Assembly: GCF_000003605.2 (NCBI RefSeq)
Contig: NW_003154742.1
Coordinates: forward strand, 77,831 to 104,022
Source of the DNA: Saccoglossus kowalevskii
Taxonomy: Eukaryota; Hemichordata; Enteropneusta; Harrimaniidae
Direction: 5' to 3'
DNA length: 26,192 bases
Shown in pieces: positions 1 through 26,192 of the stretch (its first letter is position 1; every line of letters begins with the position of its first letter). The notes under the pieces were generated by a model. That model was not told where the DNA came from and did not search any database. It worked only from the letters and a program-made list of their open reading frames with translations. The translations under genes and the position numbers were made by a program.

Positions 1-1811
<1,811 letters not shown>

Positions 1812-4001: not shown

Positions 4002-7000
4002 CTACTCTCGTTTACATTTTCGTAGGAGTATCTTTTCCAGCCTCATCATGGGAGCTTCTGCCATCAGAGATACAACAAATGATGCACAGTAAGACAGCAC
4101 CAAACCCGCAATATACATGTAGATCTGGTAAGAAAATAACGTATCATCAGTATAAACAACATATGACGTTATACTGTCCTCTGTCATCTCGTGAAGCAGT
4201 TACGCGGTAGTGAGTTGTTACCCAACACCGTCCAGGGGCGTACGTTTATTCCTTACCTCATTAAAGTCTGTTAAGTGTATCAGCCTATCTCTATACATCA
4301 TGTAAACCAATATCACCATGATGTGTATGAGATATGCAGTGTACGTCAACCTGCTTATCGGTATCCACGCTTTCCACGACAGTATGGCGTTTATCGGACC
4401 TGTTGAAGATATGTTATTGTAAATCTCGGTTCAACCTCAGACTAGTAATACAAACTTTATACAAATAAATTGCGACTATCATACCTCCATATCCCGTGAG
4501 ACAGGCGAAAGTCAACCAACCGATGGCAACTCCCCAGGCTATTCGGCACACTGTCATATAGAATACATCAACAGGTCTGGATAACACAGTGCCGTGGAAT
4601 GTACTGTATAAGCCATAGAGAACAGCTAAGGCGATAATCCACGCTGCTGCCCAGCATACCACATTTACAATCTATATTTACAATTAATATATATTTCTAT
4701 GAAATATGCTTAAATATATGTACATATAAAATTAAATTAACTAATTTGGATATCGTGTGGCGAAATGTGACGTAATGTAATTCACTGGCCCTACTTCTGA
4801 ATAACGCCGCAAGGTGATTATTGATTATAAGTATGAAAATGAGATCGTCCAGGGTCAACGACCTGTCACACTTCCGTCGAACAATCACAATAACAGTCAC
4901 ATGCTCACCCTGGGAATCTTTACTCTGCAGGACGTTTTAACCAATGCATAACCTACTATCATGCCGATTAGATATGTACAAATACGGGTCCACGGTTTGG
5001 TATAGTAGTATGGCGAGCTTATAAAATACCTCTCAGGATCGCTAACCCTATAAAAAATAAGGAAACAATAGTAGCCATCTGGAATTTGATGAAGGACATT
5101 GTCAATTACAACAAAAACAGCACAATTATAAATGCTGACGATTAGCACACACGTATATACTTAGCTCACAATTCACATATAACGTAACAATACCAGCTCT
5201 AGGGCATATTCTATTTGAAAAGAGGGGCATACATTACATTTCCTAGAGCGACATTCGAGCCGTTTTTGTTGTTCGGCCTCGACATTTTGTTACGGAGTGG
5301 CACTTCATATTCCTCGTCGTACTCGGACTTTATCCAATACATAACAAGACATACTGATTTGTATATACATTGCTACCAGTATAAAACTAGCGTAAACATG
5401 GTAGCTATTAACATGCAATACTTACGTCAACGCCATGGATGATGTAAGATTGTGATGGACAGCTAAACCTGCTCTGGTACCAATGCACATGGTCATTAAC
5501 AATGCTATACTTGCAATACCAATTTTTGGCCATCTGAAAAAAAAATGTTGCTAGACCGAGTTAAGTAGAATAAAAAAATCCCTGTTATGAACATTCGCTC
5601 ATCAAATCATTTTTAGCCATGTGACCAATTGTTGAGACGATTAGAATGCCTCTGTAAATTCGCACTTGTCTTTTTCTGCGTATACAGGTCAGTGCACCCA
5701 TAGTTTATACAAAAGATTATATACATGCCACTTTTTATAAAGAATATTCTTGTAAACGCCACACTTTATACAAAGGAAACTTGTAAACGCCACACTTTAT
5801 ACAAAGGAAACTTGTAAACGCCACACTTTATACAAAGGAAACTTGTAAACACCACACTTTATACAAAAGAAACTTGTAAACGCCATACTTTAAACAAATG
5901 GAATCTTGTAAACGCCATACTTTAAACAAATGGAATCTTGTAAACGCCACTTTTTTAACAAAGGAATCTTGTAAACGCCATACTTTACAGAAAATGATCT
6001 TGTAAACACCATGCTTTAAACAAATGGAATCTTGTAAATGCCACTCTTTTAACAAAGGAATCTTGTAAACGCTATACTTTACACAAAGGAATCTTGTAAA
6101 CACCATATTTTAAACAAATGAAATCTTGTAAACGCCACTCTTTTAACAAAGGAATATTGTAAACGCTATACTTTACACAAAAGCATATTGTGAACACCAT
6201 ACTTTACATAAAGAAATCTTGTAAAACCATACTAAATGAAATCTTTTAAACGCCATACAGTAATCACACAGTAATCCTATAAACGGCATTATTCACACAA
6301 ATATACGTAAGTGCCACACATCACACAATGAAATTTTGTGAATTTGTTCATATACCTCAAATAAGGTAATTTCCCTTGATTATGTTGATTGTAAAACCTT
6401 GTTCAGTACCATTTAGTGTCAGTGATCATGAAATGCGAGAGACTTTCTTTCTGTTCTATTGAAAATTGCAAGTCAACGAAAATGGCCAATGTTTAAACGC
6501 CTTGCATTTCGAGAAGACTCTCTTGTACTTAGTAATTTGTTATGCCCACAACACCGGCAATGACATCTTGAGACAGATAATTACTATTTTGAGACTATTG
6601 CTCTACAACATATGTCAACATCAAGGTATACGATTGGATTATAGAACTGTGCCAACATAGATTACAATCTAGATGGTAGAACACATATCCTGATTTCTTT
6701 TTTTTTGCAATTTGTCCGCCTTTCATATCCCTGCTTCTCCAAAGCCTTTGATTTACCACACATAGGTTTAGACTTGCAAATCTGGAATTTGGGGTGATAC
6801 ATACCTATAGAGTAAAACTATGATAAATGGACTGATGACGTGGAATTGCATATCATTAGCCAGGTACCAAGCGACTCCGTAACACTGTGAATACAAAAAC
6901 AGTCGTGTTATGTTATAACAGTTATGCAGGACTGGTCGGCTGCTGCAGCTGGTCAAAACTTCCGGCTGGTTATGATTATGGTTTGGACAAACGTGTCGAT

Positions 7001-8620: not shown

Positions 8621-10890
8621 ATTAGGTATTTCGGTGAACATGAATAGATATACACAAGTAGATGCAACTAAGTATTTCCTACGACTAGTACTACTAGGAT
8701 GAAATGGTCTATGGCAAGTAAATGTGTGAGACGAAGGCGAACACATTATAACGCCGAGACCTTTCTCTGAATCTAATACGATGCTGTGGAGAATTCATTT
8801 TTGAATCACCACCATCAAAATTACTCAAAATTAATTAAATTTAGGCCTTTTTGTTGAAATGAATTTTCTTTCGAATAGATGTTTGCATTGTCGTGTGATA
8901 ATGTGACTATGACTATGGCTCCACAACAATTCTGATAGAAGTGATTTATAATATTTCTCGCGGATCTAGAAAGAATACCAACATACCTGGCTGGTATGCA
9001 AATTTCTTGACATTGTTGTCTGAGGTCGAATTTAACAGAGATTCCACCTCTTCCGGATCACCACCGAACCCTGACTGGACGTTTACCGGTACATCAAATT
9101 TGCTTGGAGCTCGATTCTTATTGATTTGCGTAACGACGAAGTCGTATACTGTTCCAATAATCATAAAGGTCAGTAGCACCCCGATAACGACTCTACGGGT
9201 AAGAATGAAATGCGACAATAGTAAATAATTGTCGGTATCCTTTAAAAAGGTAGAAACAGCATATTTTTTTACGGTTTACACAGCCACTTACAACATTACT
9301 ATAGAACCCGTAGATAAGGAGTGCTCCTCCGTACAAAATAAACCGGATGGCTGTAGTTTCGGAATGGGGACCAATTTCGTACCTAGAAGCAAGCACACCA
9401 ATACCACACACGGTAGTTACAGATAGACGAACAATAAAATACAATGACTTGTCAATTTAGATTGGTAGTGATGATTCAAGTACCTGTTTTCAATATCATG
9501 AGTACGTCCTTCGTGCTACAGGTATCTGGAAAGCACAAACCGATGCTTATAGCCCCCAATTTCTGCGAAAATACGCATACGAACAATGTGTGAAATAAGT
9601 TAATACAGTACGTCGCAAATTTCTAACTATGCGGCAGTCGTGGAAAAATACGATGCCATCATCCCGGAGGTGCACACCAAACGTGTAGCAATCTCATTTA
9701 CATTGTTATTTTAACGGGTCACTGTCGTCGCATCGCGCCGGGTGCTACATGGGTCCCATGCGATACACTGCATTTTGTTGCATACTGTTTCAACATGATG
9801 GGCACTGCGTAAATGTCACCTGATACATACTGTGTTTAATACTTACTGAAACAGGAAATGAAGCCAAGCAGTATTTGCCATTAAATGTTGACTCAGCTGT
9901 CTGTACGTCTTTCACCTTGCGACACTCCTCTGGCGCCCCGATCCACAGAATATTCCCTTCCAAGACACCTGGCGGAAGTTTGCCGTTCGAGTCAAACACT
10001 GAAATAAATGCGAGAGTCGGAGTTGAACCTAATGTTGGTCGCTTTCGGGAAATACAACACGAATTGTAACACAATTATATGTGCAGTGTATGTTGTGCCA
10101 TTTGGATAAAACACAGCCATTAGCGTGACGGGAAAATGCAATAGCACTTAACCATGGAGCTAAAATTATTTTAGCTCCATGACTTAACTAACTGTTCCAG
10201 AACCAAAGTTAACGTAGCGTGAATAGTTATGCTGAGCTTGTACGTACGACAGTTATGACAAACACCACCAACGGCTATATATTAAAACCTCTCATTTTCA
10301 TAGCAACTTGGGATAGCAGGGGCTTAGATTCTTCAACCCGGGATTTGACCTTCACTCGATTACGGAGTGAATGTGTCACAATATTAAACTTCTGTACACA
10401 ATGAATAATTATATGACACTTTACGAAATATACTGTGTACTGCTATATATAGTGTGTACTTCTAAGGCTAACTGCGCATGCGCTTGGTTTAAGTTCAGCG
10501 AGTGGTGACAGAAACATGTCACTGTCGACTCCCGTATTGTAACTTTGCAAACTCACTTTTAATCGCGTAACTTGATCCACTTACGATATCTTCGACATAC
10601 TGAATTGTGTCGTTTACACATCGGATACTGACGTCTGAGGGGTTTAACGGAATTATGGGGATGTCCTTGTCAGGTTCTGCCAAGGTCATTTTCCCGAGAT
10701 TTTGCAGAGCAGCTTTGTGAATGGCGTTTTGCAGGAATTCCTGATTCGTTTGACCGATGATTCGCAATTGATCGCCCGATACCCACATTTCGGTCCACTT
10801 TCCCGGTTGCTGGCCCGGCATTAAAACTTGCGCGTTGACCTCGACTGGCAAACAGCAACAAAGCGTCGCGGCTATAACCGTTACTGCCAT
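4002..10890 (-). CDS. nrf-6-like: NRF-6-like multi-pass acyltransferase (acyltransferase-3 family), tandem copy A, 15 exons, 724 aa
   Basis: Exons: 10890-10557, 9998-9847, 9562-9484, 9382-9292, 9192-8987, 8515-8348, 8064-7971, 7779-7690, 7292-7112, 6884-6805, 5533-5426, 5047-4909, 4671-4485, 4399-4257, 4124-4002. All junctions are GT/AG and the sum is 725 codons with the stop. Domains in order: signal peptide ([20 protein letters not shown]); NRF domain at about residues 90-215 with six Cys (RCVNDT, EECRK, KYCLA, LCFPDTC, LFCTEE); TM1 ([17 protein letters not shown]); linker with EEVESLL; acyltransferase-3 domain at about 320-715, including [101 protein letters not shown] and [15 protein letters not shown]. 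Family members act in endomembranes; C. elegans nrf-6 affects fluoxetine response and yolk/lipid uptake. The acyl acceptor is unknown. The start was chosen by homology to copy B. Upstream in-frame ATGs at 10938 and 11052 would add up to 54 residues. Oddity: IHIMV where copy B has IHPMV. Confidence 0.93.
5738..6260. repeat. Minisatellite, ~31-32 bp unit, about 17 copies, in copy A intron 10
   Basis: The unit on the plus strand begins CTTGTAAACGCCATACTTTA followed by about 11-12 more bases. The word GTAAACGCC recurs at 31-bp spacing from 5757 and at 31-32 bp after 5881. Early units (ACTTTATACAAAGGAAA) form a homogeneous block, middle units carry AAACAAATGG, and copies decay to about 6340. The repeat explains the Lys/Cys/Val-rich spurious minus-strand frame at 5828-6106. 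Copy B has no counterpart. Confidence 0.95.
7431..7588. mobile_element. ~157-bp non-autonomous TIR element, copy 1 (copy A intron 8)
   Basis: It lies between copy A exons 9 and 8. It matches the reverse complement of 11693-11849 over its whole length: shared words include GGTCGTCACCTGCGCA, GCGATGATAACAACACAC, AACGCAAAGGC and ACACGCTATGGCCATCTGAC. Its ends are inverted repeats of the AAAGCGG...GGTCGTCACCTGCGCA type, more decayed at the right end (TGCGCAGGCGAAGACTCCC). A TTAA abuts the right end (7589-7592) but not the left (ACAC). It is too short to encode a transposase. Confidence 0.8.
8526..8616. repeat. (TA)~45 microsatellite beside the copy A exon 6 acceptor
   Basis: About 91 bp of uninterrupted AT/TA. 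On the transcribed (minus) strand it ends 9 nt before the AG of the exon 6 acceptor (exon begins 8515), so it occupies the normal place of the branch point and pyrimidine tract. It accounts for the Ile/Tyr-repeat spurious frames at 8401-8746. Confidence 0.97.
8987..9192 (-). other. Copy A exon 5: TM1 and cytosolic linker with an acidic dileucine motif
   Basis: This exon encodes [17 protein letters not shown] (TM1) and then a polar linker with EEVESLL, which fits the [DE]xxxL[LI] endolysosomal sorting signal. The NRF domain precedes TM1 and follows a signal peptide, so the linker should face the cytosol, where adaptor proteins could read the motif. It is 206 nt against 299 nt in copy B. Confidence 0.55.
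9748..9760. repeat. 13-bp palindrome CATGGGTCCCATG in copy A intron 2
   Basis: A perfect 6+1+6 palindrome with CATGG/CCATG ends like the longer hairpins in this window. It has no flanking direct repeats and no A/T core, so its relation to them is unproven. Confidence 0.4.
10146..10188. mobile_element. Hairpin H1: 29-bp perfect palindrome with 7-bp direct repeats (copy A intron 1)
   Basis: The core 10153-10181 has 14-nt arms (left arm CATGGAGCTAAAAT) around a single T. The direct repeat ACTTAAC lies immediately on both sides (10146-10152 and 10182-10188). It is a candidate minimal mobile palindrome, related in sequence and layout to 11307-11333 and 16726-16755. Confidence 0.7.
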
Positions 10891-11692
10891 GAAATCGAGT
10901 CCGCTTCGACGACGATACTCCGATTTTGTATACATCATGTTTGCCGTCAACAGTGCCGTGACGCCGTCGAATGATCTATTCCCCACACTAAGCAGCGTAC
11001 GCCGATCGAAGCACAGCTTTTGTACCAGTGTGAACTTTCCCACGTGACTCATTCTCACATGACCACTTCACCTCCCCAAACTTCATGTGCTAGGGAGTCT
11101 GACTGACGGTTCATTTGAAATCAAAAAGGTCGACCGTAGAAGAACGATTCAGGTGAGCGCCGACTGCGTCGAAACATTTGGGCTCATATAAGGTATTAAT
11201 ATGCCAACTTTTAGATACGGCTGTTGACTCAGGATGATGTCATTGGACTAGCAAACTGTAGTATGTGTAATATCTTGAATCGGACGGAGTTCAACCTCGG
11301 TTCAACCATGAAACTATAAATCATAGTTCCATGGTTCAACATCACTATCAGGGACTGTGGTACAAAGAATCTACATATATGGACTTATTTACTCAGTTAG
11401 TGTTTAAAAACAAATACCTGACACGGGGCTGGGCAGGTATACCAGTCTCTAGCATTTCAATTTTGTTCTAAGGTTCGATTAATAAACAGTGGAAATCGAA
11501 CTAGAACAACCGACACAGACCACATTCCAAATAATAATCTGTGAAGGTTAACGAATATCAGTTCGGCATCACAATAGTTGTCTTTTAATACTAATGAATA
11601 TGAAAATGACGTGTAAGACCATGAAGCTTTGTCGGAAGAAACTGTCGCAAAGGTGTCCAGTGCTTCAATGATTCTTTGCGAAAGTTAATTAA
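10891..11692. promoter_or_regulatory. Upstream region of copy A, with an overlapping E-box and AP-1 site
   Basis: CACGTG lies at 11041-11046 (minus strand GTCACGTGGG) and overlaps TGACTCA at 11045-11051, about 150 bp before the chosen start. Copy B also has CACGTG and TGACTCA upstream. If translation began at the ATG at 11052, both motifs would be coding. No TATA box was assigned. The rest of the stretch holds hairpin H3 (11307-11333) and otherwise unremarkable AT-rich DNA. Confidence 0.4.
11300..11340. mobile_element. Hairpin H3: 27-bp palindrome with 7-bp direct repeats, upstream of copy A
   Basis: The core 11307-11333 has 11-nt arms (CATGAAACTAT / ATAGTTCCATG, one mismatch) and a 5-nt loop. 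GTTCAAC flanks it at 11300-11306 and 11334-11340. A third GTTCAAC at 11289-11295 makes the duplication claim weaker here than for the other two hairpins. Confidence 0.55.
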
Positions 11693-11853: not shown

Positions 11854-12328
11854 AGACAATGTCCAGCATTATAATACCATGAACAGACAAACAAGTCATT
11901 CGCTTCCAAGGCAGCCACCAGCTACACACATGGAGTTCCATACACCCCCAATAAATTACTGAACAAACCAAAACCGTTCTTTACACATACATTAGTGGGA
12001 GAATACGGTTCACAGATATTCCACATCAACAAAATATTCGCATTATACGTCAGCCACCAGCTACACACATGGAGCTCCCTACACCCCAATAAATTACTGA
12101 ACCAACCAAAACCGTTCTTTACACATACATTAGTGGGAGAATACGGTTCACAGATATTCCACATCAAAAACAATATTCGCATTATACGTTTATAATAGAG
12201 AAGTAGCAGAATATAAATGGGTAGTCACTGTTCATTTGCGCACGAACTCCAAAAAGTGCATTGATCGGAGGTTCAGTAGTGAATGACTTCTTTGTTTGTT
12301 CATAGTATTATAATGCTGGACTTTGCTG
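11854..12328. mobile_element. 475-bp TIR element with internal 139-bp tandem duplication
   Basis: The left end and the reverse complement of the right end share GTCCAGCATTATAATAC and go on to match over about 40 bp (ATGAACA, ACAAA, AAGTCATTC) with few mismatches. TTAA borders it at 11850-11853 and 12329-12332. The left TTAA is shared with the neighbouring element at 11693-11849. The interior is mostly the two-copy repeat 11912-12189. No transposase is encoded. The Cys/Asn-rich minus-strand frame at 11922-12182 is a product of the internal repeat. Confidence 0.75.
11912..12189. repeat. Two-copy tandem repeat, 139-bp unit
   Basis: Unit 1 is 11912-12050 and unit 2 is 12051-12189, both starting CAGCCACCAGCTACACACAT. 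The copies differ by a few substitutions and a one-base C-run indel. The repeat lies wholly inside the TIR element at 11854-12328. Confidence 0.92.
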
Positions 12329-14907: not shown

Positions 14908-17900
14908 TTATATGCTCTTGTCTTTTCGTAACAGTATCTTTTCCAGCCTCATCATGGGCGCTTCTGCCATCAGAGATACAACAAATGCCAAACAGTATGA
15001 AATCACCAAACCCGCAATATATATGTAGATCTGATAAGAAAATATAATAGAAATAATTACAGCTCAATGTATCACGTAGCACACATGTGGCATGCTTTTC
15101 ATTGAAGTGCAGTAGGGTCTGTAATTATGGTTTTCTAGATTTCATTGTATTTAGAAGGAATTAGCGAGAATATAAATAAGTCGGGTTCCGATCGAGTCGG
15201 ACAACGAATAAGCGTTATGAATGGTACGTGATTACCTGGTTCAGATCTGTTATATGTAGGAGCCTATCTCTGTGCAAAACATAGGTCTCTTGCACCATTG
15301 GGTGTATGAGGTACGCACAATACGTTAATCTGCTTATTGGAATCCAAGCTTTCCATGACAATACGGCGTTTATCGGACCTGTAAATGTCAGGCATGCTTT
15401 TAGTAATATGGGAACATTGTAATCCTAGTTACCATGGCAAATATAGTGATAGTAACCTTATATATGTTACTAGTATTATAATAAATTAGTAATATACATA
15501 GTGATTAAACAAACATGACTAGCGCTTGTTTGGAGATTACTAAAAGCGTTGTGTGGTATTTTCTACTTACCTCCGTTACCAGTAAGGCAAGCAAACGTCA
15601 GCCACCCAATAGCAATTGACCATGCTACTCTGCATATAGTCAAATATAATATATCAACTCCCCTTGACAGCTCAACGCCGTGAAATGTACCATATAAACC
15701 ATACAATACAGACAGGGCTACTACCCAAGCCGCCATCCAACAGATGAGATTAACAGCCTAGATTTAAAAACATAGTTTAACTCTGGTGACATTGTCGTTT
15801 GTTATATAATAGTATTTCTTTTATCATTGTTTGTTTCAATATGAATATGCATTGACATAATTATTTTTTAATACCGACAAGTATTAGGATTAGGATAACA
15901 GCAGTGGTAAAACAGTACTACAATCTGTTGGGGGATAATAAATCATATTGAAAGTAGTATAACAACACATATTAGAGACATGAAATTAGCATATCTCTGT
16001 GTGAGGGGTATAATTCAGGCACATATTGAGGGCAGCATATATGCATGCAAGAGGGTATAATTTATGGCTCATATTGAAGGCTGAATAACTCTTTGAGGGA
16101 AGGACGGTTAATCCAAGGCAAAAATCGATAGCAGACTATATTTTTATGTTTCTTCCTTAAAAGAAATCAACAGGTCTGGACTACAGTGTGAATGATATTT
16201 TGGTATACTTTTTGAAGAAAAAAATGTATTAATTCAGGTATAGCAAATATATTTGCAGAGGAGGTATGGTTTTCATGAATTCAGTCTTCAACTGGGGTGA
16301 AACACATTCAAAGGTCACTGGTCCCTTAATATATCTTTTCTTTTCATCTCTGATGATACGGGAAAGGTAAAAAATAAATAAACATAAGTTGCAAACATTA
16401 TCAGGCCACACATCAAAGTTAGGTCAAACATTGTGACAGGAAAAAGGCTGCAACATAGAATATAGAATTTATTTGGATAACTTTGTATACTGTTTACTGT
16501 TGGTACAAACCTATACCCCTCATAAATCATTCGTATGTTTGCTCAGTGACTGTATAACTCACCAAATGGATTTATGTGTAGATAACGTATGTCTCTAATC
16601 GCTGTTGTCTTTCTACCAATAGCATGATCCACAATATAAATACATTTTGCATGAGTTCAAATACTATGCTGACCAATCATCTATTGATCCGCAGTGTATT
16701 CGAATTCCATAATAGTATGTCCTAGCGTGGAGGTAAAATAGATTTTACCTCCATGGTCCTAGTTAAATATTTACTGTTTTTTCTTACCCTGGGTATTTTA
16801 AAGTTGCACTCCGTCTTGACTAAAGCATACCCTACAGCCATACCTGTGAGGTATGTGCCGATACGTGTCCATGGTTTAGTATACATGTATGGCGACATCA
16901 GAAAATATGTTCCACCAGTAATATTGGGGTCCAGTCTGTAGTATAAAATTATTATACGACATTGTATTTGTGTACATATAATATATGCAAATAATTCCCG
17001 CATTATGTTTAAATTGGCATGAAACATGTTGTGTCAAACGATGCCGAGATTTGAACGTGTCAGCTTGTCATTTTTTAAAACGACCAAGTTAGATGCCCGA
17101 ATTTAAGCGATAAAATTAGCTTCAGATCAAACGATCAGACCAAAACAGCTTAAATTCAAGCGTCTGAAAATGTGTATTCTCCAACACCTTACACACAACT
17201 TGCATTGTTCTCATGTATACATATATTTTAGGAAGCACTGCTAAAGCCATTAGTGAGGAGTCATTCAATAAGGCATGGGAGGGAGTAATGACATACGTGG
17301 TCAGTATGCCCAGTACCCAAGATGTTCATGTATCGCGATCTGCAAAATCTTCAAATGTACATGTTCTGCCAAAGAGTTTTACAGGTTTGCACATGTTCTA
17401 CCATTGATATTCATATCGTGAAACGAGCTCTTAAATCACGGGTCAGTGACGGGTATATTATATATAGGAAAGAATGTGGAAAACATCTAAATAGCCTAAG
17501 TGTGTATTTACTGTCCATGGGCGGCTTCATTTTTTTCACAAATCATGCAAACTGAGGCGTGCATCTTAAATCCTGCTCCATTCAATGGGGTGTTGTTTGT
17601 GCATTTATTTATATAGCGTATATAATTAAATAAGTAACATTTAAGTAATGAAAGTAAGATTATTTATAAATAACAATGTGTATATAAAAAATATATGTAA
17701 TAGTACGAATCGGATTATTCATGAACAAAACAAATGCATTTTGGAATACCACTAGATATTAATAATAAAAAGAATACCACAATTGTTACATATAAAAATT
17801 ATATATAATTAAATGCTCAAACGCTATCCCATTCAACCCATGTGTGAACTAATTACGCGCTTCGACATTCTATGGTTACCTAAACACTTTTCGATAACTT

Positions 17901-24127: not shown

Positions 24128-24942
24128 GTGATCACCGATGCAGACGTTGTTACACTATATCAACATAATCCCAACGCAACTTTGAATGAACATGCTGCCT
24201 TCATTCTAGAAAATGCTATCACAAAATGGTTGGAAATGTAACAGCAGAATACGTCCTAGTAATAAACTAAGTAACTTCTAAAGACTGAGTGGTTTTAGCG
24301 AATTCGTATACAGGGCCCATTTAGTTATAAACTGACGTTAGCTTCACGTTCATGTCCTACCATGGAAACAGCCAAAAACATGTTGCTTGTTTTTTGAGTG
24401 GAGCGGATCGTCAACCAGCCTACCGGCATGTATTGACTATGTCCCGGACTGTTTACTAGTACTTACTTACTTGTCAGTGTCTGACTGTTATATACAGCCC
24501 AGAACACATCAGAATAGTAAAAAAAAGTCAGGAAATGTCAGTTGCCCGTGCCTTGAGAGCCGTTGAACCAAAACAATCTGTCACCCTTTACCACCCACAG
24601 CATCGATATGATTTTATATTGCATGGAAAAGAACACTAAATGCAGCTATCTCGGTCACCAATGGAATCATCAATCTTCATGATTTATGCAACTGGTATTT
24701 CCATCTATTTGCTTAATGGTCTGAACTTTAAAATTGTCAAGTTCGAGAGTGTGTTTTTACGTACAGTGACGCGAACATTCAACAACGTGTTGAACAGGAA
24801 GTCTATCTTGGGCTAGTGGCATTGTTAAATTTTATAGAGTACAGGAAATGTTCCATTAAAGAATTGTTATGCATATCAAAAGTCTTTATTGGAACAGAAC
24901 ATGTTATATATTCACCAAAAACAACGTTTCCATGTTTCTAGG
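24128..24942 (+). other. Possible degraded coding region (three open blocks, no ATG-to-stop gene)
   Basis: Three plus-strand blocks read as plausible protein but are separated by stops and shifts: about 24128-24231 (contains DADVVTLYQHNPNATLNEHA), about 24490-24635 (SVARALRAVEPKQSVTLYHP), and about 24742-24942 (RVEQEVYLGLVALLNFIEYR, then GTEHVIYSPK). I recognise no family. Open stretches of this length also arise by chance in this window. The proximity to the helicase fragment would fit a decayed transposon, but that is inference. Confidence 0.2.
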
Positions 24943-25183
24943 CGTACAGCGAATTGGAAACAAAAGAAATCGTCCGACCCAAACCACAGGCGCTCGACTG
25001 ACTTGCAGCCATGCCTGTGCTAGCTGTAACTTGAACTCTTTTGATCTTCCTCAAATTCCTGATTAGTTCAATTAGAGTTTTAGTCTTGCCAGTTCCAGCT
25101 TGTCCCGTTAATAAAATACTGTGTCCATGTATGGCCATGTCTAAACTGAACTGTTGTAGTTTATTCATTGTTATTTTTGACAT
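24938..25183 (-). pseudogene. PIF1-like DNA helicase, N-terminal fragment
   Basis: From the Met at 25183 the frame reads MNKLQQFSLDMAIHGHSILL, then the Walker A motif TGQAGTGKTKT, then VQVTASTGMAAS. This is the order seen at the start of the helicase core in PIF1-type proteins, including those carried by Helitrons and the expanded PIF1-like genes of invertebrates. A TGA lies just upstream of the Met, so the N-terminus is short. After TGMAAS the expected TIH motif is not intact (GRTISF) and the frame stops at 24938. Walker B and all later helicase motifs are missing. It is either a truncated transposon or retrocopy remnant, or a first exon whose next exon I could not find. Confidence 0.65.
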
Positions 25184-25195
25184 TGTGATCGGCAC

Positions 25196-26192
25196 TCAAA
25201 GCTCTACTCCACTGGAGTCTGCCTAGCATCTGATTACTTGCTCTATTAAAACAGATGGTATCAATTAAAACTTCCTGTCATTGCTTACAATGACTTTGAA
25301 TGTGTACTTAATAAGTACTACCAAGGTCATATACTTAAATAAATAATTGTATGCCTGTCCAATATGGCGACCAAAGGTAAAAACATTGTTATGCAAATTA
25401 GCTTTAGTTGAAAATTTGAGTTTTCTCCTCGATATCTACGTGACTTTGAACCAAAATGTTATCGACAAGACTCAGAATACAACTGTGACAGCCACTGAAA
25501 CGCAATTGAAAGCAAATGAACACGTCAAGCAAACAAAACTTTTTCGAGTCCTGGCATAAAATGGAGGCACATACCATTTTGACTCTTGAGGGGAATGGAA
25601 ATCAGTTGATTTGAGGGTGCTCAATAAGCAAGAGAGTAAATCCTTTTTATGCTACGAAAAAATGCAGACCTTGAACGTACTTTTTGGACTTTAGTACAAC
25701 ATCATTTTTGTTTGATTAGCTAACGTTTTTAGGTTCATTTTCTGTAAGTTACAGAGCACATACCTAAGCGGCCGTCCCTCAGCAAATAATGAAGCAAAGG
25801 CATTTTCGATGTCAAAATCGCGAAACTCACCCTTTTTACGCAAACTAGGAAGTTCGAATTAATAAACGAAGTACAGGTCGGCGAAGATAACATATCCAAG
25901 AATCAACACATACCAACAATTATTCTCAAACGTGAATATTCGTGGTGTATTTTAAGTCTAACCGGACCATAGGTGAAAATTTGTTAGTACTCTAATTATC
26001 CAAATATATTTTAGTATAAGGTAGTAAATATCCATGAGAGATATGATAACGGATTATGTATATTATAGACACGACCATATATAGTACACTACAATACTGT
26101 GGAATTATAAATCGGGATTAAAAGCTGCATGCGAAATACTATTATTCAGATCTCTAGATGAAATTACGTCACATACCAGTTAAAGCGGGAGG
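25196..26192. other. Right-hand flank; no gene recognised
   Basis: AT-rich DNA with no frame of recognisable content on either strand. The 70-codon plus frame at 25347-25559 has no family motif. A small inverted repeat (AAAATGG ... CCATTTT) lies at about 25558-25580. Confidence 0.5.

Follow-up and report, generated by a model that had tools for sequence, protein, structure and literature searches.

Three short palindromes, each flanked by an exact 7-bp direct repeat, were found in a 26,192-bp stretch of the Saccoglossus kowalevskii genome, which was analyzed over its whole length and is referred to here as the window. The hairpins are real and derived from transposition, and they are most likely best read as P-type repair scars and not as a self-moving family. 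Each hairpin is very probably the excision scar of a DNA transposon of the P superfamily (1360/Galileo/P type), and a P-type parent element of the scars is likely.

Hairpins with 7-bp repeats in the window

The three hairpins (H1 to H3) and their target-site duplications, none of which has an assigned strand, are located as follows:

10146..10152, no strand: left target-site duplication of H1, ACTTAAC
10153..10181, no strand: H1 scar, 14 + 16 nt of the end CATGGAGCTAAAATAAG with a 1-nt overlap
10182..10188, no strand: right target-site duplication of H1, ACTTAAC
11300..11306, no strand: left target-site duplication of H2, GTTCAAC, an exact fit to the 1360 motif GTTNAAC
11307..11333, no strand: H2 scar, a second end type, CATGGAACTATA...
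11334..11340, no strand: right target-site duplication of H2, GTTCAAC
16719..16725, no strand: left target-site duplication of H3, GTCCTAG
16726..16755, no strand: H3 scar, ends CATGGAGGTAAAAT with a 2-nt centre
16756..16762, no strand: right target-site duplication of H3, GTCCTAG

Positions 10153-10181 (H1) read CATGGAGCTAAAAT-T-ATTTTAGCTCCATG and are bordered by ACTTAAC on either side, exactly the coordinates, palindrome and flanks that the sequence-only reading had given, and the same 29-mer recurs twice elsewhere in the genome, both times with a separate 7-bp repeat. H2 (11307-11333, GTTCAAC) and H3 (16726-16755, GTCCTAG) had also been placed correctly by that reading and contain one arm mismatch each. 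The hairpins are 27-30 bp in size, and exact 7-bp direct repeats flank all three. H2 is related to hairpins at loci L006 (181-207) and L022 (2290-2309). The end of H3 is a C/G variant of the H1 end at nt 8, and the hairpin at locus L024 has one end of each variant (H1-type and H3-type). Across the scars of H1-H3, 2 of 60 paired positions are mismatched, and the window scars are therefore probably not very old.

The window was scored for hairpins with arms of at least 9 nt, loops of at most 12 nt and at most one mismatch, with the AT microsatellite masked. Among the 20 hairpins obtained, the longest arms belong to H1 (14), H2 (13) and H3 (13), which are also the only ones with a flanking repeat, while the other 17 have no flanking repeat of at least 5 bp. 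Ten Markov shuffles of the window resulted in no hairpin with a repeat of at least 7 bp and no arm above 12, and a separate scan of 20 shuffles produced a repeat of at least 6 bp once in all. For one exact 7-mer, the chance expectation at the composition of the window is about 1e-4.

The window looks like animal DNA. It carries two diverged copies of one gene on the minus strand, with the exon at 9790-10074 matching the NRF domain (E = 3.2e-12) and paralogous gene pieces about 11 kb apart. According to the inferred gene model, H1 and H2 would map to copy A, H1 apparently within its first intron and H2 upstream of its first exon, and an exon of copy B would be about 30 bp away from H3. The paralogue could not serve as an empty site, as alignments of the gene never reach the hairpin-bearing introns. 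Other features of the window are a tandem array in which a 31-bp unit is repeated about 16 times (5727-6225), within which a minus-strand frame is open over 93 codons (5828-6109), and a PIF1-like helicase fragment on the minus strand (24938-25195; 8.8e-7).

The window was furthermore scanned up to 4 kb for a longer inverted-repeat element, and none stood out; one weak longer row at 25577-25908 (CATACCA, 10/12) was set aside. An exact 7-bp repeat was found at none of the other CATGGA-type pairs in the window. Two tandem copies of a 138-bp unit at 11912-12189 each contain CATGGAG[T/C]TCC, which resembles the scar ends, and the scan of CATGGA-type pairs reported no 7-bp repeats around them. Thus three scars and no matching insertion are visible in the window; this excess could reflect selection against long insertions near genes or the loss of the parent.

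Sites with H1-type ends in the genome

The genome (572 Mb) was searched with the pattern CATGGAGNTAAAATN{0,8}ATTTTANCTCCATG, which was limited to a total length of 36 bp and carried no 17-nt requirement. In this way 11 sites were identified, with none for the reversed control; allowing lengths up to 46 bp, the pattern found 7 sites, none of them longer than 36 bp. From one 36-bp copy the 17-nt end CATGGAGCTAAAATAAG was deduced. This 17-mer has 15 matches at 14 genome sites, and at 13 of these 14 the inverse end (6-17 nt of it) follows directly or past filler, with L016, which did not parse cleanly, among the 13. The three pattern searches combined gave 20 sites with H1-type ends, of which 18 were parsed after exclusion of L016 (boundary unclear) and L020 (one-sided).

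Perfect 7-bp repeats flank 16 of the 18 parsed sites; the search for these sites had used the ends and made no use of the repeats. The repeats at L009 and L007 have one and two mismatches, respectively. The sequence-only reading was correct in that the hairpins are dispersed, related, non-coding and inserted with a 7-bp stagger, and its prediction of flanking 7-mers elsewhere in the genome is borne out by these counts. At L007 (1501-1536) a 17+2+17 scar lies between 7-mers that differ at two positions, for which mutation or an exchange between two scars is possible. Near 1480-1520 of L016 an extra CAATT separates the repeat and the end, which a simple single scar does not explain.

Nucleotide 17 of the end is reached by 13 of the 36 sides of the parsed sites, many of which were selected with the 17-nt pattern, and by 7 of 22 sides at the 11 sites of the pattern without this requirement (capped at 36 bp). 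Each end is kept up to nt 17 at most in the H1-type scars at the sites read; as the parse cannot score past nt 17, this limit rests on the 14 sites of the 17-mer, which were compared beyond it. There, no scar matches the continuation of L020 for more than two bases.

Unequal sides occur around the same 17-nt end (9+17, 7+17, 17+6 and 17+12), with many different centres. At one extreme the junctions overlap by 2 nt and at the other they contain 7 nt of filler (ACCATGG at L017), excluding L024, whose value of +14 reflects its variant ends. The L017 filler (1501-1530) resembles a copy of nearby end sequence, as in templated insertion. A fixed shared centre, the mark of a MITE, was not found, since centres and side lengths vary apart from three small identical groups. 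These groups are one 29-mer present three times, one 31-mer present twice and one 34-mer present twice among the 11 pattern sites, and all seven copies have their own 7-bp repeats.

Proposed excision and end joining

The idea of a scar retaining at most 17 nt per side was formulated before the genome data were obtained. According to this explanation, an element was first inserted with a 7-bp staggered cut and the target was duplicated, a step shown by the repeats. The transposase would then excise the element through a cut at the junction on one strand and a cut 17 nt further in on the other, as the 17-nt limit and P-element biochemistry suggest, so that each flank would be left with a 17-nt single-stranded tail of the element end sequence. 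Judging from the junctions, the tails would finally be trimmed, annealed at small overlaps or extended by filler, and ligated by end joining. The expected product is a 7-bp repeat, up to 17 nt, the reverse complement of up to 17 nt and the second 7-bp repeat; it would look like a hairpin because the two element ends are inverted repeats, and would have no mobility of its own. Three features of P-superfamily scars are present: identical target repeats of a length typical of the superfamily (7 or 8 bp, here 7 bp), at most 17 nt per end at the sites read, and variable junctions (overlap, blunt or filler).

This scheme is close to what is described for Drosophila. The cuts made by P-element transposase are offset: one strand is cleaved at the junction, its partner 17 nt into the element (PMC7776569), and for this reason the donor ends retain 17-nt tails (PMC2895639). 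Among the 66 joined isolates in Table 1 of the latter source, both target repeats are kept in 63 by sequence, and palindromes with arms of 10 or more account for 36, of which 22 are 25-34 bp. As in the hairpins described here, the fly junctions consist of a target repeat, up to 17 nt, the reverse complement of up to 17 nt and a repeat; the ends start with CATG, short overlaps and fillers occur, and palindromes of 25-37 bp are common (PMC2895639). The fly system differs in its 8-bp repeat, in contrast to 7 bp here, in its other end sequence and in that these were laboratory events in a Rad51 (spn-A) mutant. Moreover, 19 of the 66 fly joins retain just 4-7 nt (PMC2895639), and scars of this class would escape the 17-nt and hairpin scans.

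The central claim of the sequence-only reading, that the minimal hairpin is itself mobile by an unknown machinery, is not supported, as there is no fixed centre and the copies mostly look like truncated pairs of one 17-nt end, with the variable trimming, overlap and filler expected of end joining after P-type excision. The corresponding alternative is a micro-MITE, a 27-36-bp palindrome of two abutting inverted repeats that is cut and pasted with a 7-bp stagger. It accounts for the exact 7-bp repeats at all three window copies, for the window lacking a longer relative and for the identical 29-, 31- and 34-mers with their own repeats. Nevertheless, it is quite improbable. The same 17-nt end occurs with different centres and unequal sides, unlike the fixed sequence of a replicating unit, transposition explains the fillers poorly, and P-type cuts 17 nt inside each end would presumably break up a 29-bp duplex. 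Shared junctions can also result from preferred overlaps: in flies, 14 of the 66 isolates have one 30-bp junction in common (PMC2895639). The commonest long fly junction is a 30-bp palindrome between the repeats and as such of the size of H3.

The identical groups could thus have arisen by a preference for certain overlaps, of the kind tabulated for flies, or by movement of a unit; they slightly lower the confidence in the excision-scar explanation, which is still high. Counting against that explanation are also L016, which shows no simple fit, the mismatched repeats of L007 and the variant ends of L024.

Target-site preference

For the target-site analysis, 22 perfect repeats were used (16 from H1-type sites and 6 from hairpins with other ends; L007, L009 and L016 excluded). 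Their mean fit to GTTNAAC is 3.27 of 6; random 7-mers drawn from these loci score 1.64 (z = 7.1), and none of 20,000 resamplings reached the observed fit. The both-strand motif of the 22 repeats is TTNGTYNRACNAA, which is palindromic by construction. The single target sites are only weakly palindromic, with 12, 4, 6, 7, 7 and 9 of 22 per position pair from the outside inwards. The repeats therefore match the GTTNAAC target, which characterizes the 1360 clade of the P superfamily, well beyond the background level.

In Drosophila, the P-superfamily element 1360 is flanked by a target repeat of 7 bp, for which the motif is GTTNAAC (PMC3276498, Tables 3 and 4), and its comparison with the scars concerns these two target features. 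Galileo, also a P-superfamily element of Drosophila, shares a palindromic target of mostly 7 bp, sometimes 8, and differs in its consensus GTATTAC and its long inverted repeats (PMC4168063). Outside insects, a P-type transposase is described for zebrafish Pdre2/THAP9, with ends that start with CAT as here; there the repeats are 13 bp (CATACCTGTCAAC), the target repeat is 8 bp and excision by zfTHAP9 comes with larger flanking deletions (PMC10983969).

Candidate parent element and P transposases

L020, one of the 14 sites of the 17-mer, is one-sided and continues into other DNA. In the 10-kb stretch taken from it (L023), the 17-nt end is located at position 227, and the first 23 nt of this end are CATGGAGCTAAAATAAGAAGGAG. 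On the strand opposite to the end, matches to the N-terminal (3.5e-19) and C-terminal (4.4e-6) parts of the P transposase RNase H domain were detected, together with a weak match to the GTP-binding insertion domain (0.0022) that is below the cut-off. The nearest P transposase exon is about 3 kb from the 17-nt end, and an ORF for a PHD finger (L023:489-803, plus strand) lies between them. The end is tied to the P transposase by nearness and not by proof. From position 6520 onwards L023 reads N, and the far end of the element would fall there. A 221-aa ORF without a Pfam match and the PHD-finger ORF are located on the plus strand of L023:227-2026, and the P transposase gene is convergent to them.

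None of the sites and loci read contained an intact element that combines two matching ends with 7-bp repeats. The genome contains 13 matches to PF21787 (P-type, TNP-like RNase H), all of them over the cut-off, of which some have stops or are parts of one gene. No H1-type ends were found at the 13 P-transposase loci (3.2-3.4 kb), two of which were widened to 10 kb, and a search of the Protein Data Bank with the L023 exon gave no match. One of the loci read (L045:1782-2172) contains a 391-bp sequence that has TCCATTG as its 7-bp repeats and nearly identical inverted ends (13/14) unlike CATGG; it adjoins a P transposase match.

The scars could also stem from a transposase outside the P group whose cuts are likewise placed deep within the element ends. 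An intact parent joined to ends on both sides was not found, and the PHD-finger ORF separates the 17-nt end from the P exons, both of which would fit such an origin. However, the 7-bp target, the GTYNRAC-like preference and the 17-nt limit all agree with P-superfamily data, and the sole extended end lies near a P transposase, so that this origin is very unlikely. Internally deleted copies formed by interrupted gap repair, in which sister-templated synthesis halts early, instead of direct joining of the tails, have a negligible probability: incomplete synthesis followed by end joining is described as common in flies after P excision (PMC2895639), but many remnant lengths would be expected, and no side extends past nt 17 at the sites read.

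Several other candidates were rejected. Terminators and known RNA hairpins gave no Rfam match at its cut-offs, and LINE-type insertion of a hairpin RNA does not fit the constant repeat length and the missing A tail. The target lengths and footprints of hAT, Tc1, piggyBac and similar elements do not fit either. Dada has a 6-7 bp target, but its U6 and U1 families, as far as described, have small-RNA genes as insertion sites and lack terminal inverted repeats. Three bacterial contigs that matched a relaxed pattern have no 7-bp direct repeats, and in two of them the flanks extend the palindrome; the pattern scan of viral contigs gave no match. A literature search for tiny elements, natural scars and P footprints turned up neither natural P scars nor a eukaryotic element as small as these hairpins, although publication elsewhere is possible.

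Abundance and possible further scar families

Four further scar-like hairpins with 7-bp repeats and other ends (CATAGACCTC..., CATGGAACTATA..., CACAGTTT...) were detected in 108 kb of additional retrieved sequence, to which neither the window nor the bait sites contributed:

L006:137-163, scar-like hairpin
L006:181-207, scar-like hairpin
L010:39-57, scar-like hairpin
L022:2290-2309, scar-like hairpin

They remained from eight raw rows after removal of three rows of the L007 tandem repeat and one L016 row; a low-complexity row of the window (1029-1044) was not counted. All four come from the bait flanks (52 kb); the surroundings of the transposases (56 kb) contained none. Two of the hairpins are short (L010 with 19 bp and L022 with 20 bp) and could be due to chance. 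Five shuffles gave 1, 0, 0, 0 and 0 such hairpins. Since hairpins with other end sequences are flanked by 7-bp repeats as well, the sequences suggest that several families left scars. By rough extrapolation from this small and non-random sample, about 20,000 scars would be present genome-wide (Poisson range about 6,000-54,000), that is, some 10^4.

Implications

It is conceivable, though unlikely, that P-type excision and end joining were so dominant in this animal that a dispersed repeat of scars alone is what chiefly remains of the elements, perhaps because a domesticated or hyperactive P transposase cleared them from the germ line. With the scar reading, a seeming new class of mobile DNA becomes a natural record of transposon excision. 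Such palindromes are also a warning to repeat finders and should not be labelled mini-transposons. If the scars number about 10^4, thousands of independent outcomes of break repair at a known cut would be readable in one genome without experiment. The finding also suggests that the 17-nt cut of the P element, as defined in flies, is common to a P-type lineage with a 7-bp target in this animal.
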